A stretch of DNA of 64,000 nucleotides, from assembly GCF_000582785.1 (NCBI RefSeq), contig NZ_HG931173.1, positions 619,282-683,281 on the forward strand, written 5' to 3'. The notes beneath the pieces were generated by a model. The model was not told where the DNA came from. It searched no databases and was given only the letters and a program-made list of their open reading frames with translations. Of the stretch, positions 32,275-44,021 are shown in pieces. Every line of letters starts with the position of its first letter. The first letter of the stretch is position 1. This DNA comes from Candidatus Blastococcus massiliensis AP3. GTDB taxonomy: Bacteria; Actinomycetota; Actinomycetes; Mycobacteriales; Geodermatophilaceae. A program made the position numbers and the translations under genes.

Positions 32275-34020
32275 TCAGCGCAGCCGGCGGGTGTTGTCCG
32301 GGAGACGAGCGGTCACGCCCTGGGCGTCGAGCCACTCCATCAGCGGGACGGCGACGCGGCGACTGGTCCCCCAGGCCTGGCGAGCCTGGCTCAGCGTGAA
32401 CGGCTGTGGCACGGCGGCGAGCCGGCCGCGTGCGACGTCGGCGATCCCGGGCGCGAGGTAGACGCCGTCGGCGATGCGGACCAGTTGACCGCTGCGCACG
32501 GCGGCCGCGAGTTCGCGCGCGCCGAGGCCCGCGGCCACGAGCTCCGGCGCCTCCGGGGCGGCGAACGGGTCCGCGGCCAGCCGCGCCCGCACCGCGTCCA
32601 CCGCGGCCTGCACCGGCGCCGGGAGTACCGCCGCCTCGTCGACCACCCGGCCGTCCCGCAGGGCGAGCGGCGTCCGGACGAGGGCCGCGACGAGGTCGGC
32701 GGCGGGCAGCTCCAGGGCGCGGCGAACGACCTCGACGGGCGGCCCGGGCTCGAGCGGCCGCAGCTTCCGGTACCGGGCGACGACGTCCGGCACGCGCGCG
32801 GCCAGCGCGTCGGTCAGGCCGGGAGCGAGCAGCCACGGTCCGTGCTCGTCGGCATCCGCAGGAACCGGCCAGCCCATCGCGGTGAAGTCGGCGGTGCGGA
32901 CGATGCTCCGGGCGGCGAGGTCCGCCGCCGCACCCTCGGCGCCCTCCGGCCGGGCCGAGAGCTCCGCGGCGCGCTGCCGGGCCGCTCCCCTGCGCCGCAG
33001 CTCCGGTGGGTCGACGTCCCGGACGTCCGCGCCGAGCACCCGGCGCGCGCCGGGATCGCGCAGCAGCAGGCGGTCGCCGACGCGCAGCGGCAGCGGAGCG
33101 CCCAGCCGCAGCCGGACGACGGCGCCGTCCAGCAGCCGCACGCGCGCACCGACGGTGGCCGAGCCGATGTGCACCACCACCTCGGCGGGCAACCGGTCGT
33201 CGGGAGCGGCAGCGAGCGTCACGTCCAGCTCGGTGGTGCTGCGGAACGCCCCCGGCGTGAGCAGCGCGTCGCCACGGGAGAGCTCCTCGACGGCGGTGCC
33301 GCGCAGGTTGAGCGCGACCCGGGCGGTGGCGGTGGCCCGCTCGACCGTCCGACCGAGCGACTGCACCCCGCGGACGACGACCTCGCGCTCACCCAGCGTG
33401 AGCCGGTCCTCGGCGGACACCGAGCCCGCCGCCAGGGTGCCGGTGACCACGGTGCCGGCGCCCTTGATGGTGAAGGCGCGGTCGACCCAGAGCCGCACGG
33501 GCGCCTGCCGATCGGCCGCCGGGAGCCGCGCGAGCAGCGTCTCCAGCCCGTCGGTCAGCTCGGACAGGCCCGCGCCGGTGACCGCGCTGACCGCGAATCC
33601 GGGCACGTTCCCCAGCGAGGTCCCGGCCAGCCGGTCCCGGACGTCGGCGAGCACCGGGCGCGGATCGGCGAGATCGGCCTTGGTGACCGCCAGGAGCGCG
33701 TGCCGCACCCCGAGGGCGTCGAGGACGGCGACGTGCTCCGCCGTCTGCGCGGACCAGCCGTCGTCGGCCGCCACGACGAGCAGCGCGGCCGGAGCGGGAC
33801 CCACGCCGGCCAGCATGTTGCCGATGAACCGCTCGTGGCCGGGGACGTCGACGACCGCCACCGTCCGTCCCGAGGCCAGCGTGGTCCAGGCGAAGCCCAG
33901 GTCGATGGTGAGCCCGCGCCGGCGTTCCTCCGTCCATCGGTCGGGCTCCATACCGGTGAGGGCGCGCACCAGCGCGGACTTGCCGTGGTCGACGTGGCCG
34001 GCGGTGGCGATCACGTCCAC
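32275..34020 (-). CDS. selB: Selenocysteine-specific elongation factor SelB
   Basis: GTPase that delivers Sec-tRNA to the ribosome at a recoded stop codon. The 581 residues start at GTG, overlapping the selA end by 10 bases. G1 is AGHVDHGKSALVRAL, the switch region follows with GLTIDLGFA, G3 is DVPGHERFIGNMLAG and G4 is TKAD. Three beta-barrel domains and then winged-helix domains (last one near FTLSQARQAWGTSRRVAVPLMEWLDAQG) follow; the latter read the SECIS hairpin in mRNA. In this genome the cognate tRNA reads UAG, so SelB would act at UAG codons. Confidence 0.95.
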   Translation of the reverse strand: MDVIATAGHVDHGKSALVRALTGMEPDRWTEERRRGLTIDLGFAWTTLASGRTVAVVDVPGHERFIGNMLAGVGPAPAALLVVAADDGWSAQTAEHVAVLDALGVRHALLAVTKADLADPRPVLADVRDRLAGTSLGNVPGFAVSAVTGAGLSELTDGLETLLARLPAADRQAPVRLWVDRAFTIKGAGTVVTGTLAAGSVSAEDRLTLGEREVVVRGVQSLGRTVERATATARVALNLRGTAVEELSRGDALLTPGAFRSTTELDVTLAAAPDDRLPAEVVVHIGSATVGARVRLLDGAVVRLRLGAPLPLRVGDRLLLRDPGARRVLGADVRDVDPPELRRRGAARQRAAELSARPEGAEGAAADLAARSIVRTADFTAMGWPVPADADEHGPWLLAPGLTDALAARVPDVVARYRKLRPLEPGPPVEVVRRALELPAADLVAALVRTPLALRDGRVVDEAAVLPAPVQAAVDAVRARLAADPFAAPEAPELVAAGLGARELAAAVRSGQLVRIADGVYLAPGIADVARGRLAAVPQPFTLSQARQAWGTSRRVAVPLMEWLDAQGVTARLPDNTRRLR

Positions 34021-35342
34021 GCAGCCGCCACCTCCAGGACGGCGTCGGTCAGCGCGCCGTCGTCCTCCGGGGCGAGGCTGCGCAGGTTGAGCAGGGTGCG
34101 GCCGTCCTCGAGGTAGCCGACGACCGGGCGGCCGCCGAGCCGCAACGGCTCGGCGAACGTCGGGGGCAGCGAGATCGCGACGCCGGGCAGCGGCTGCTCG
34201 GGCGCTCCTCCTCCGCCGACCCGGGCGTCGGCGGCGACGACGTGCGCGTCGACGCCGGCCGCCGTCAGCCGGTCGGCGACCGCCCGGGCCCGAGCAGTGA
34301 GGACGGCGGGCTCCGCGGCGAGCAGCTGCGGCACCGGCGGCAGCGGGCCTCGCAGCGTCGCCTCCAGGGCGGCCAGCGTCGTCTTGTCCACCCGCAGCGC
34401 GCGGTAGAGCGGATGCCGGCGCAGCCGTTGCACGAGGTCGGCGCGGCCGAGGACCAGTCCCGCCTGGGGCCCGCCGAGCAGCTTGTCGCCGCTGGCCACC
34501 ACGAGGTCCGCGCCGTCGGCCAGCGTGGACTGCAGGTCGGGCTCGTCGGGCAGCAACGGGTGCGGCCGCAGCAGGCCGGAGCCCACGTCGGCCACCAACG
34601 GCACTCCGGTGCCGGCGAGCCCCTCTGCCAGGTCCCGCACCGGGACCGCCCGGGTGAAGCCGCGGACGACGAAGTTCGACGGGTGCACCTTGAGCACCGC
34701 ACCCGTGTCCGGCGACAGTGCGGCGAGGTAGTCGTCGAGGGTGACCCGGTTGGTCGTCCCCACCTCGCGGAGCCCCGCCCCGGTCGACTCCAGCAGGTCA
34801 GGGATGCGGAAACCGTCGCCGATCTCGACCAGCTCCCCCCGGGCGAGGACGAGTTCCCGGCCCTGCCCGAGCGCGGTGGCGACCAGGGCGAGGGCCGCGG
34901 CGCAGTTGTTGACGACGATCGCCGCCTCGGCCGCGGGGACCGCCTCCAGCAGGGCGTCGATCGCCGCCGCACCGCGCGGTCCACGGCGCCCGGTCCGCAG
35001 GTCCAGCTCCACGTCCGTGGTCCCGGCCGCCGCGGCGATCGCCTCGACCGCCGCCGCCGACAGCGGCGCGCGACCCAGGTTGGTGTGCACGAGGACGCCG
35101 GTGGCGTTCAGCACCGGGCGCAGGCTGCCGGCCGTGAGCGGCAGCGCGGCGAGGACGGCGTCGACCGCGTCGCCCGCCGGGAGCCCGCCGTCGCGGATGC
35201 GGCCCTGCACCCGCTGCACGGCGGCCTTGACCAGCTCGCGGCCCAGCCGCTGCACCGCGGCCTGCACCGCCGGCGCCGCGAGCAGGGCGTCGGTGCGGGG
35301 CACGGCGCGGCGCGGATCGTCGGTGCTGCTGTCGGCGGGCAT
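34011..35342 (-). CDS. selA: L-seryl-tRNA(Sec) selenium transferase SelA
   Basis: PLP enzyme that converts Ser-tRNA-Sec to Sec-tRNA-Sec with selenophosphate. The 443 residues have the family layout: an N-terminal tRNA-Sec-binding domain, NATGVLVHTNLGRAPLS, NNCAAALALVATALGQGRELVLARGELVEIG, and the PLP lysine in ASGDKLLGGPQAGLVLG. The ATG at 35342 lies 29 bp downstream of the tRNA-Sec gene; selB follows with a 10-bp overlap, so selC-selA-selB probably form one transcription unit. Confidence 0.95.
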   Translation of the reverse strand: MPADSSTDDPRRAVPRTDALLAAPAVQAAVQRLGRELVKAAVQRVQGRIRDGGLPAGDAVDAVLAALPLTAGSLRPVLNATGVLVHTNLGRAPLSAAAVEAIAAAAGTTDVELDLRTGRRGPRGAAAIDALLEAVPAAEAAIVVNNCAAALALVATALGQGRELVLARGELVEIGDGFRIPDLLESTGAGLREVGTTNRVTLDDYLAALSPDTGAVLKVHPSNFVVRGFTRAVPVRDLAEGLAGTGVPLVADVGSGLLRPHPLLPDEPDLQSTLADGADLVVASGDKLLGGPQAGLVLGRADLVQRLRRHPLYRALRVDKTTLAALEATLRGPLPPVPQLLAAEPAVLTARARAVADRLTAAGVDAHVVAADARVGGGGAPEQPLPGVAISLPPTFAEPLRLGGRPVVGYLEDGRTLLNLRSLAPEDDGALTDAVLEVAAAWT

Positions 35343-35371: not shown

Positions 35372-35467
35372 TGGCGGAGGCGGACGGGAATCGAACCCGC
35401 CTGACCGAGGTACTCGGCCACGTCGGCTTTAGAGGCCGCGGGGGCCACCAGACACCCTGACGCCTCC
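35372..35467 (-). tRNA. selC: tRNA-Sec with anticodon CUA (reads UAG)
   Basis: A 96-base gene including the encoded CCA. The acceptor 5' strand GGAGGCG (35467-35461) pairs with 35382-35376; the discriminator G and CCA end at 35372. The long variable arm is an 8-bp stem (35420-35413 with 35409-35402), as expected for tRNA-Sec. The T arm is GCGGG-TTCGATT-CCCGT, giving the extended 13-layer acceptor/T stack with one mismatch. The anticodon stem CGGC/GCCG closes the loop CTCTAAA, so bases 34-36 are CTA (35432-35430) where normal tRNA-Sec has TCA. Its identity is supported by its place directly upstream of selA and selB. Confidence 0.95.
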
Positions 35468-35530: not shown

Positions 35531-36124
35531 GTGACCCGAACCGAGCCCCGCTCCCCCGCGCCGCTGCCGCCGGTCTCCTTCACACCCGAGGAGGCCGCGG
35601 CGATCACCGCCGCCCTGGCCGCTCGGCCCGACGGCCCGTTCGCCGAGGCCGGCGGGGCGGCGCTGGAGAAGGTGCTCACCGTGCTCGAGCCCGATCCGCA
35701 GCTGCGGGCCCGGATGCTGGCGAGCAGCCGGTGGGTCGCCGCCGACGTGGCCCGCGAGAGAAAGCTGCAGCGGCGCGTCGAGCAGGGCGTGGCCGAGCGG
35801 CGCGTGCTCGTCCTCGACTACCGCGACCGGGAGGGCCGCTGGTCGGAGCGGGCGGTGGAGCCGCAGCTGCTGGTCCGCTCGGGCACGCACGAGTTCCTGG
35901 TCGCCTGGTGCCGCGAACGGCAGGAGCTGCGCTGGTTCCGGGAGGACCGCATCGGCGGCGCCGAGCTCACCGGGGAGATCGCGCCGGGACGTGACCTCGG
36001 CGGTCTGGGCATGCCGCCGAACGGACGTCCGACGACCAACCATCCCGCCGGGCGGGCACTGCGGCAGCGCCCCACGGAGCCTCGGCCCCCGCGACTGGTC
36101 GTGCTGCCCGGAGGTCGCGCCTAG
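35531..36124 (+). CDS. WYL-domain protein without a helix-turn-helix
   Basis: A 197-residue protein from GTG. The central part (SFTPEEAAAITAALAARPDGPFAEAGGAALEKVLTVLEP) matches the region that follows the HTH in YafY/DeoR-type regulators. The WYL core follows: RVLVLDYRDREGRWSERAVEPQLLVRSGTHEFLVAWCRERQELRWFREDRI. The usual N-terminal winged helix of about 60 residues is missing, and the tRNA-Sec gene starts 63 bp upstream. The stop codon is TAG, the codon read by the adjacent tRNA-Sec, and selD continues in the same frame nine bases later. It is either a ligand-sensing remnant or a small regulator of the sel genes; both are inference. Confidence 0.75.
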   Translation: MTRTEPRSPAPLPPVSFTPEEAAAITAALAARPDGPFAEAGGAALEKVLTVLEPDPQLRARMLASSRWVAADVARERKLQRRVEQGVAERRVLVLDYRDREGRWSERAVEPQLLVRSGTHEFLVAWCRERQELRWFREDRIGGAELTGEIAPGRDLGGLGMPPNGRPTTNHPAGRALRQRPTEPRPPRLVVLPGGRA

Positions 36125-36133
36125 ATTCGAGCC

Positions 36134-37138
36134 GTGACCACCGCATCGGCCGTCCGCCTGACGCAGTACGCCCACGGTGGCGGGTGCGCCTGCAAGATCC
36201 CGCCGGGCGAGCTCGAGGCCGTGGTCGCCGGGCTGACCGCGCAGGGTCCGGCCGATCCGGCCGCCGAACTGGTCGTGGGGCTCGACGACGGCGACGACGC
36301 CGCGGTGGTCCGCATCGCCGGTGGTCAGGGGCTCGTGCTCACCACCGACTTCTTCACTCCGGTCGTCGACGACGCCTACACCTTCGGCCGCATCGCCGCG
36401 GCCAACGCACTGTCGGATATCTACGCCATGGGCGGCACACCGGCCGTGGCGGTGAACCTCCTGGGGTGGCCACGCGACGTGCTGCCCGCCGAGCTCGCGG
36501 CCGAGGTGCTCCGCGGCGGCCTGGAGGTGGCGCACGAGGCGGGCTGCCACGTGGGCGGCGGGCACTCGATCGACGACCCGGAGCCGAAGTACGGCATGGC
36601 CGTGACCGGCCTGGTCGACCTGGACCGGATCATCACCAACTCGGGCGCGGTCGCGGGCACCCCGCTGAGCCTGACCAAGCCGCTGGGCGTCGGTGTCCTC
36701 AACAGCCGGATGAAGGCGACCGGCGAGGTGTCGGAGGAGGCGGTCGCCTCGATGACCGCCCTGAACCGGGACGCCGCGCGGGCCGCGGTGGCCGCCGGCG
36801 TCCGTGCGGGGACCGACGTGACCGGCTTCGGCCTGCTCGGGCACCTCTACAAGATGGCCCGGGCCAGCGGCGTCACCGCGGTCGTCGACGCGGCGGCCGT
36901 CCCCTACCTGGCCGGCGCCCGGCAGGCGCTGGCCGACGGCTTCGTCTCCGGCGGCACCCGGCGCAACCTCGACTGGGTGCGCCCGCACACCGACCTGTCG
37001 GCGGTGTCCGAGGACGAGGCGCTGCTGCTGGCCGACGCGCAGACCTCCGGCGGTCTGCTGCTCGGCGGCGAGATGCCCGGGGCCCCGGTGATCGGCGAGT
37101 TCGTGCCCCGCGGGGAGCACGTCGTCGTCATCCGCTGA
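36134..37138 (+). CDS. selD: Selenide, water dikinase (selenophosphate synthetase) SelD
   Basis: Makes selenophosphate from selenide and ATP, the selenium donor for SelA. The 334 residues match the family. The catalytic segment near the N-terminus reads YAHGGGCACKIPPGEL, so this copy uses Cys and not Sec at the active site. Other hallmarks: LTTDFFTPVVDDAYTFGRIAAANALSDIYAMGG and GGHSIDDPEPKYG. GTG 36134 follows the TAG of the WYL gene in the same frame; GGAGG lies about 17 bases upstream, so coupling to the upstream gene is likely. Confidence 0.94.
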   Translation: MTTASAVRLTQYAHGGGCACKIPPGELEAVVAGLTAQGPADPAAELVVGLDDGDDAAVVRIAGGQGLVLTTDFFTPVVDDAYTFGRIAAANALSDIYAMGGTPAVAVNLLGWPRDVLPAELAAEVLRGGLEVAHEAGCHVGGGHSIDDPEPKYGMAVTGLVDLDRIITNSGAVAGTPLSLTKPLGVGVLNSRMKATGEVSEEAVASMTALNRDAARAAVAAGVRAGTDVTGFGLLGHLYKMARASGVTAVVDAAAVPYLAGARQALADGFVSGGTRRNLDWVRPHTDLSAVSEDEALLLADAQTSGGLLLGGEMPGAPVIGEFVPRGEHVVVIR

Positions 37139-43925: not shown

Positions 43926-43938
43926 CGTCCACTCCCTG

Positions 43939-43981
43939 GCGCCGTCTTGTCGCAGTCCGGGTACGGCACCACCTCGTCCGG
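43939..43981 (-). promoter_or_regulatory. Guanidine-III riboswitch aptamer
   Basis: The minus strand reads CCGGACGAGGTGGTGCCGTA, then CCCGGACTGCG, then ACAAGACGGCGCC. From memory this matches the guanidine-III (formerly ykkC-III) aptamer almost base for base, including the invariant CCGGACGAGGTG, GCCGTACCCGG and GACAAGACGGCGC blocks that fold into a pseudoknot. It ends 13 bases before the gdx start codon and abuts the ribosome-binding site GGGAG, so guanidine should turn on translation of the exporter. Confidence 0.93.
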
Positions 43982-44021
43982 GAGCCGGTCAGGGCTCCCG
44001 GCCACTGTCCCATGGCCGCTC

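Follow-up and report, generated by a model that had tools for sequence, protein, structure and literature searches.

The window, which is the whole 64-kb stretch of the Candidatus Blastococcus massiliensis AP3 genome analysed here, contains a selenocysteine (Sec) locus in which a tRNA-Sec gene (selC) with a CUA anticodon is accompanied by selA, selB, and selD (Table 1). ARAGORN finds a single tRNA in the window, at this position and with anticodon CTA, and labels it tRNA-Pyl; Rfam cmscan matches the tRNA-Sec family RF01852 at 35376-35467 of the minus strand (64.2 bits, E 9e-11; gathering score 47), reading CUA as the anticodon, with no other RNA family over threshold at the locus. The plus strand reads TAG at 35430-35432, which gives CTA at 35432-35430 on the minus strand, and the loop and anticodon proposed in the sequence-only reading are thus confirmed by the letters themselves and by both programs, neither of which places the loop differently. 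By eye, the variable arm is long, with 8 pairs possible, and G73 and CCA are present; with the covariance model score over its threshold, the assignment to the tRNA-Sec type also stands, and the gene is a real tRNA-Sec gene with a CUA anticodon.

The acceptor and T stems are shared with the tRNA-Sec genes of other Geodermatophilaceae. The outer acceptor pairs are formed (7/7) in 110/110 family tRNA-Sec genes, some with compensated changes; the eighth acceptor pair (U8 with C) is unformed in all 110, the one in the window included, and a sixth T-stem pair, G-C, is formed in all 110, giving a 13-pair branch organized as 7+6. This differs from the standard bacterial 8+5 branch, which by eye is also that of an actinobacterial tRNA-Sec from outside the family (G222), and the AT-stem forms named in PMC5330540 are 8+5 (standard), 9+4, and a 12-pair 7+5. 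A search of the whole genome with RF01852 (3.87 Mb in 4 contigs, 99.94% complete) returns 10 matches, of which the weakest two score 30.8 and 30.6 bits. Identities were read for the best 8, among which there is no second tRNA-Sec, with UCA or otherwise; the other seven are tRNAs for Ser (three), Tyr, Gly, Leu, and Met.

Table 1. Features of the Sec locus and other features noted in the window
Feature	Position	Strand	Basis
selB, Sec-specific elongation factor with a C-terminal SelB winged helix (binds SECIS)	32275..34020	-	GTP_EFTU, SelB-wing_3, Beta-barrel_SelB
selA, L-seryl-tRNA(Sec) selenium transferase	34011..35342	-	PF03841 326.8 bits, PF12390
selC, tRNA-Sec gene with encoded CCA, anticodon CUA	35372..35467	-	ARAGORN, Rfam RF01852, family survey
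Anticodon CTA within loop CTCTAAA (35428-35434)	35430..35432	-	Sequence, cmscan alignment
WYL-domain gene	35531..36124	+	
selD, selenophosphate synthetase, Cys form (GGGCACK)	36134..37138	+	TIGR00476 391 bits, cut-off 125; sequence
Guanidine-III riboswitch	43937..44006	-	54.6 bits, gathering score 36

The neighbouring genes are also matched by profiles. SelA scores 415.7 bits with TIGR00474 (cut-off 267.9) and its gene starts 29 nt from the tRNA; selB overlaps selA and is the single match over cut-off to TIGR00475 in the genome (294.1 bits, cut-off 242.25). These matches bear out the earlier claim that the tRNA adjoins selA and selB, to which selD, on the opposite side of the tRNA, is now added. 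Between the tRNA and selD lies a WYL-domain gene, which stops at a TAG in the selD frame, 9 nt ahead of selD. Read-through of this stop to a WYL-SelD fusion was considered and rejected; where relatives have a WYL gene in this stretch, it stops at either TAG or TGA and its frame differs from one to another, while in others none was found there, and with the arrangement so variable the TAG before selD looks like chance. A guanidine-III riboswitch farther along the window is a separate observation.

Two genes elsewhere in the genome carry TAG at the position of Sec. The first codes for a formate dehydrogenase (FDH; C1:1569435-1572725, minus strand) and is a frame of 1158 codons with a single in-frame TAG and a TGA at its end. 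It scores 1908.8 bits with NF041513 (cut-off 1400), the NCBI curated model for FDH of this kind, and the protein is 62-89% identical to its matches in other genomes of Geodermatophilaceae. The motif at the TAG is NQARI-TAG-HSSTVPGL (given also as NQARI-TAG-HSSTVPGLGASFGRGG), and comparison with the solved structure of Escherichia coli FdnG (1kqf) puts the TAG opposite the Sec residue, written X, of NQARVXHGPTV. The second gene codes for a UGSC-family protein (C3:339599-340024, minus strand), with TAG at the U of ALADUGSC (ALAD-TAG-GSC). Both Sec proteins found in the genome therefore have TAG, where TGA at a Sec site had been named as the contrary outcome. A second FDH-like protein (C1:36552-38600) has no internal stop, nor have the two CMD matches or the seven AhpC-TSA matches of this genome; with none of the seven interrupted, an AhpC selenoprotein like that of Blastococcus saxobsidens is not seen here, and the candidate was rejected, the matches listed for 23 Blastococcus genomes likewise having no internal stop.

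The FDH TAG appears to be followed by a conserved SECIS hairpin that is kept in relatives. A hairpin of 7 pairs starts 11 nt after the TAG (GGUGCCC-GGUCU-GGGUGCC in this genome) and is present at the same place in all 38 FDH loci, from 37 genomes, that hold the Sec site; these loci come from two retrievals (30 and 8) and comprise 18 distinct sequences. Over those 18 sequences, 100% of cells are paired, compared with 29-66% when the partners are slid by 1 to 3 columns as a control, and one pair, the sole two-sided covarying pair, is changed on both sides in 5 of the 18. The folding energy is no better than that of shuffled sequences (z = 0.00, with 88 of 200 shuffles as good), so the case for a SECIS rests on position and covariation. 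The UGSC gene has a hairpin that likewise starts 11 nt after its TAG, and although the stems of the UGSC genes read differ from those of FDH, the loop letters, GGUC in FDH and AGUG in UGSC, both fall by eye at nucleotides 19-22 after the TAG. The sequence-only reading had suggested that FDH genes be searched for an in-frame TAG with a SECIS hairpin, and that search is positive, with the TAG at the FdnG Sec position and a covarying hairpin downstream.

The CUA anticodon is widespread in the family. RF01852 has a match at E <= 1e-8 in 109 of 112 genomes of Geodermatophilaceae, the exceptions at this threshold being G067, G097, and G098, and the anticodons of the matches were read with ARAGORN. 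CUA tRNA-Sec is present in 101 of the 112, comprising every tRNA-Sec-bearing genome of nine genera, and a further three genera have UCA, in 7 genomes (3/4 in g5, 1/1 in g6, and 3/4 in g7); in G071 the matches are to tRNA-Ser only. G036 has a second copy of the CUA tRNA-Sec on a small contig. Other genomes gave second matches at about 50 bits, which were considered as further tRNA-Sec genes and set aside, all 25 being tRNA-Ser(tga).

FDH is matched in 101 of the 112 genomes, and in 98 of them a match spans the Sec site with one internal TAG; no spanning match is without a TAG, and the TAG is at the Sec site itself in 38/38 FDH loci read (37 genomes). TGA codons counted inside the FDH of G008, G023, and G028 were rejected as Sec codons, as the aligned proteins have only the Sec-site TAG, and are taken as the terminal stop. 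In the nine genomes of g5, g6, and g7, FDH of this kind was not found at E <= 1e-60. The three FDH genomes outside the 98 are G033 and G096, which have partial matches, and G079, in which each of the two FDH copies has a gap over the Sec site (roughly residues 171-200 in one and 180-202 in the other), with a change of frame at the gap; recurrent loss, or faulty assembly at the SECIS, could account for these gaps.

Among the genomes of the order and the viral stretches searched, no convincing CUA tRNA-Sec was found outside the family. The CUA tRNA-Sec pattern occurs in 76 of 397 genomes of the order, 75 of them in the family and one (G610) outside. The G610 tRNA is on a 4,845-base contig (C194) that over 2 kb shares 85% identity with a Geodermatophilus, and the SelA of this genome, which is 82% complete, groups among the family's CUA rows; the resemblance and the SelA placement make it look like a contaminant contig, and it was rejected as a case outside the family. 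A phage-borne CUA tRNA-Sec was rejected too: 111 viral stretches match the pattern of CUA loop and T arm, but the best of the 80 searched scores 45.6 bits with the tRNA-Sec model, below the 62.3 to 115.4 bits of true tRNA-Sec genes, all of which are rows of that same model.

Between UCA and CUA, two of the three anticodon letters change, and the closing pair of the anticodon stem is C-G in 102/102 CUA tRNAs and U-A in 8/8 UCA tRNAs. A SelA tree without an outgroup was built from 37 of 99 rows, with no more than about 5 per genus. One of its branches, supported at 100/100, separates the four UCA rows from the CUA rows, and a single anticodon change then suffices. A tree with a very distant outgroup places the root inside the CUA rows, and two changes are then needed. 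A single switch is the simplest reading and a likely one. Both the tRNA and its targets would have gone from UGA to UAG in one switch, or very few, that predates the divergence of the family's CUA genera, Blastococcus and Geodermatophilus among them. As to why UAG was taken, rough calling of the window's genes gives 41 that stop at TGA, 5 at TAG, and 1 at TAA (47 in all), and UAG, as the rarer of the two main stops, may have been the cheaper Sec codon.

We are highly confident in the explanation as a whole: a working tRNA-Sec that reads UAG, a route through SelD, SelA, and SelB, FDH and the UGSC-family protein as targets, and one or very few switches. SelD would make selenophosphate, SelA would convert Ser-tRNA-Sec to Sec-tRNA-Sec, and SelB would bring the product to UAG codons that have a SECIS hairpin at a fixed distance, which in this genome are those found in the FDH and UGSC genes; at a UAG without a SECIS, translation would end. 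The gene set (SelA, SelB, SelC, and SelD) and the hairpin just after the codon are those of the standard bacterial UGA system, from which this one differs in using UAG and in its 7+6 branch. That Sec is set to UAG, as first proposed, is supported by the tRNA, the sel genes, the TAG in both targets, the hairpin, the finding of no second tRNA-Sec, and the spread of the arrangement through the family, and tRNA charging, SelB delivery, and Sec insertion are probable in this strain. Mukai and colleagues are reported to have shown in 2016 that Sec is inserted at UAG in relatives. The further claim, of a natural variant of the genetic code, holds with the refinement that recoding of UAG seems confined to sites with a SECIS downstream, UAG being still a stop elsewhere. 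Gene callers that look only at UGA may miss such selenoproteins, as the sequence-only reading proposed, though for FDH of this kind NCBI has the curated model NF041513.

A CUA anticodon would also suit a general amber suppressor, in which a seryl-tRNA is delivered by EF-Tu and UAG is read everywhere, and tRNA-Sec is indeed first charged with serine. This is very unlikely, however: the tRNA retains 13 pairs in its branch, a length that excludes EF-Tu, it lies next to selA and selB, the recoded UAGs have hairpins at a fixed distance, and UAG still serves as the stop of 5/47 rough gene calls in the window. Fainter still is the prospect that the ARAGORN label is right, with a tRNA-Pyl inserting pyrrolysine at UAG; that label goes with the CUA anticodon, whereas Rfam gives tRNA-Sec and no other family over threshold, the variable arm is long by eye, the 13-pair acceptor/T branch is found in 110/110 tRNAs, the neighbours are selA, selB, and selD, and the FDH TAG sits at the Sec position. 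A relic system, with a decayed tRNA and an FDH pseudogene cut by a stop codon, could be argued from the two gapped and frame-changed FDH copies of G079 but is scarcely credible when the 7/7 outer acceptor pairs are intact in 110/110 tRNAs with compensated changes among them, the FDH frame stays open past the TAG and codes for a protein conserved across the family, and SECIS pairs covary.

With Sec at UAG thus preferred for the window and its family, one relative, Geodermatophilus sp. LHW52908 (G058), has tRNA-Sec genes of both kinds. Its CUA tRNA-Sec is on contig C11 (86,783 bases), and its FDH and UGSC genes have TAG; a second tRNA-Sec, with UCA, scores 81.8 bits and is located at C17:1169-1263 on the minus strand. 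About 315 nt away and divergent from it is a CMD/AhpD-like gene (C17:1579-2157, plus strand) that ends in TGA and has a single TGA inside the frame, in a CxxU motif (RCFY-TGA-MESH). The protein is a marginal match to Pfam CMD (23.3 bits, cut-off 23), passes TIGR01926 (112.6, cut-off 81.8), and scores 51.8 bits, below the cut-off of 175, with NF041238, the model for AhpD-related (seleno)proteins. It has matches at E <= 1e-15 in 35 of 396 genomes of the phylum, and the codon in the column aligned to its TGA is TGA, TGC, or TGT in the 30 loci read; the 12 rows ranked next after its own come from 10 genomes and have TGA throughout, and the lower rows are mixed. In its CxxU with UGA and in the UGA of its closest relatives the protein resembles the AhpD-like (COG2128) selenoproteins listed in PMC1794560, with the differences that the host's own Sec codon is UAG and that the NF041238 score is below cut-off. 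A hairpin follows the TGA (ACGCAGA-GUU-UCUGCGU), with an energy not above shuffles and, by eye, a loop that is closer to the codon than the FDH loop by about 2 nt.

The G058 cassette looks acquired, as kilobases 2 to 6 of C17 have 59-65% GC compared with 76.5% beyond 25 kb and transposon genes surround it. A plasmid origin was rejected, as the five plasmid records that match do so over the tRNA only. Farther along, C17:40001-49000 matches 26/26 Geodermatophilus genomes, G058 among them, and in several the match is unbroken for 5-6 kb, so that the contig is the host's unless it is misassembled. G058 has one SelB over cut-off and, as the 25 lesser RF01852 matches in the family are all tRNA-Ser, it is the only genome with both anticodons found among the 112. 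Tentatively, and at slightly less than an even chance, G058 would use two Sec codons with one SelB: UAG in the ancestral FDH and UGSC genes, read by the CUA tRNA, and UGA in the acquired AhpD-like gene, read by the UCA tRNA that shares its low-GC stretch.

The UAG-decoding tRNA-Sec of this family has been described before. Passages of PMC5330540 credit Mukai et al. (2016) with the UAG-decoding tRNA-Sec and with FDH and UGSC selenoproteins, in agreement with the attribution in the sequence-only reading; they describe three Geodermatophilaceae genomes with CUA and add the AhpC selenoprotein in B. saxobsidens. The window shares with that system the CUA anticodon, the family, the genus Blastococcus, and UAG at the Sec site of FDH and UGSC, and differs in probably being from another species and in having no AhpC selenoprotein that was seen. 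The use of UAG, of UAA, and of ten sense codons for Sec is summarised in PMC10778597, and the parts of PMC13188914 and PMC7609411 consulted name neither Geodermatophilaceae nor Blastococcus. Genomes with two tRNA-Sec genes are reported in PMC5330540, with no pair of different anticodons in its passages, and G058 is absent from its passages on UAG tRNA-Sec; the titles and abstract openings returned by a literature search describe no genome with tRNA-Sec of two anticodons. The counts of CUA in 101 and UCA in 7 of 112 genomes, with the closing-pair rule, are possibly new, and a relative with both Sec codons and a family-wide view of how the switch was fixed may be new as well.

The window is a further member of the natural code variant already known for Geodermatophilaceae, which is confirmed here in an additional genome. 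From the survey, the change between UGA and UAG can be located within a single family, where genera with UCA stand beside genera with CUA, and the anticodon is seen to go with a fixed difference in the closing pair of the anticodon stem. In G058, tRNAs of both kinds and genes with both codons are present in one named strain. If both codons are used, the standard Sec codon would have been regained naturally after the family's move to UAG; the strain would allow a direct test of whether a single SelB can serve both codons and of the way in which a Sec codon changes while the enzymes are kept.
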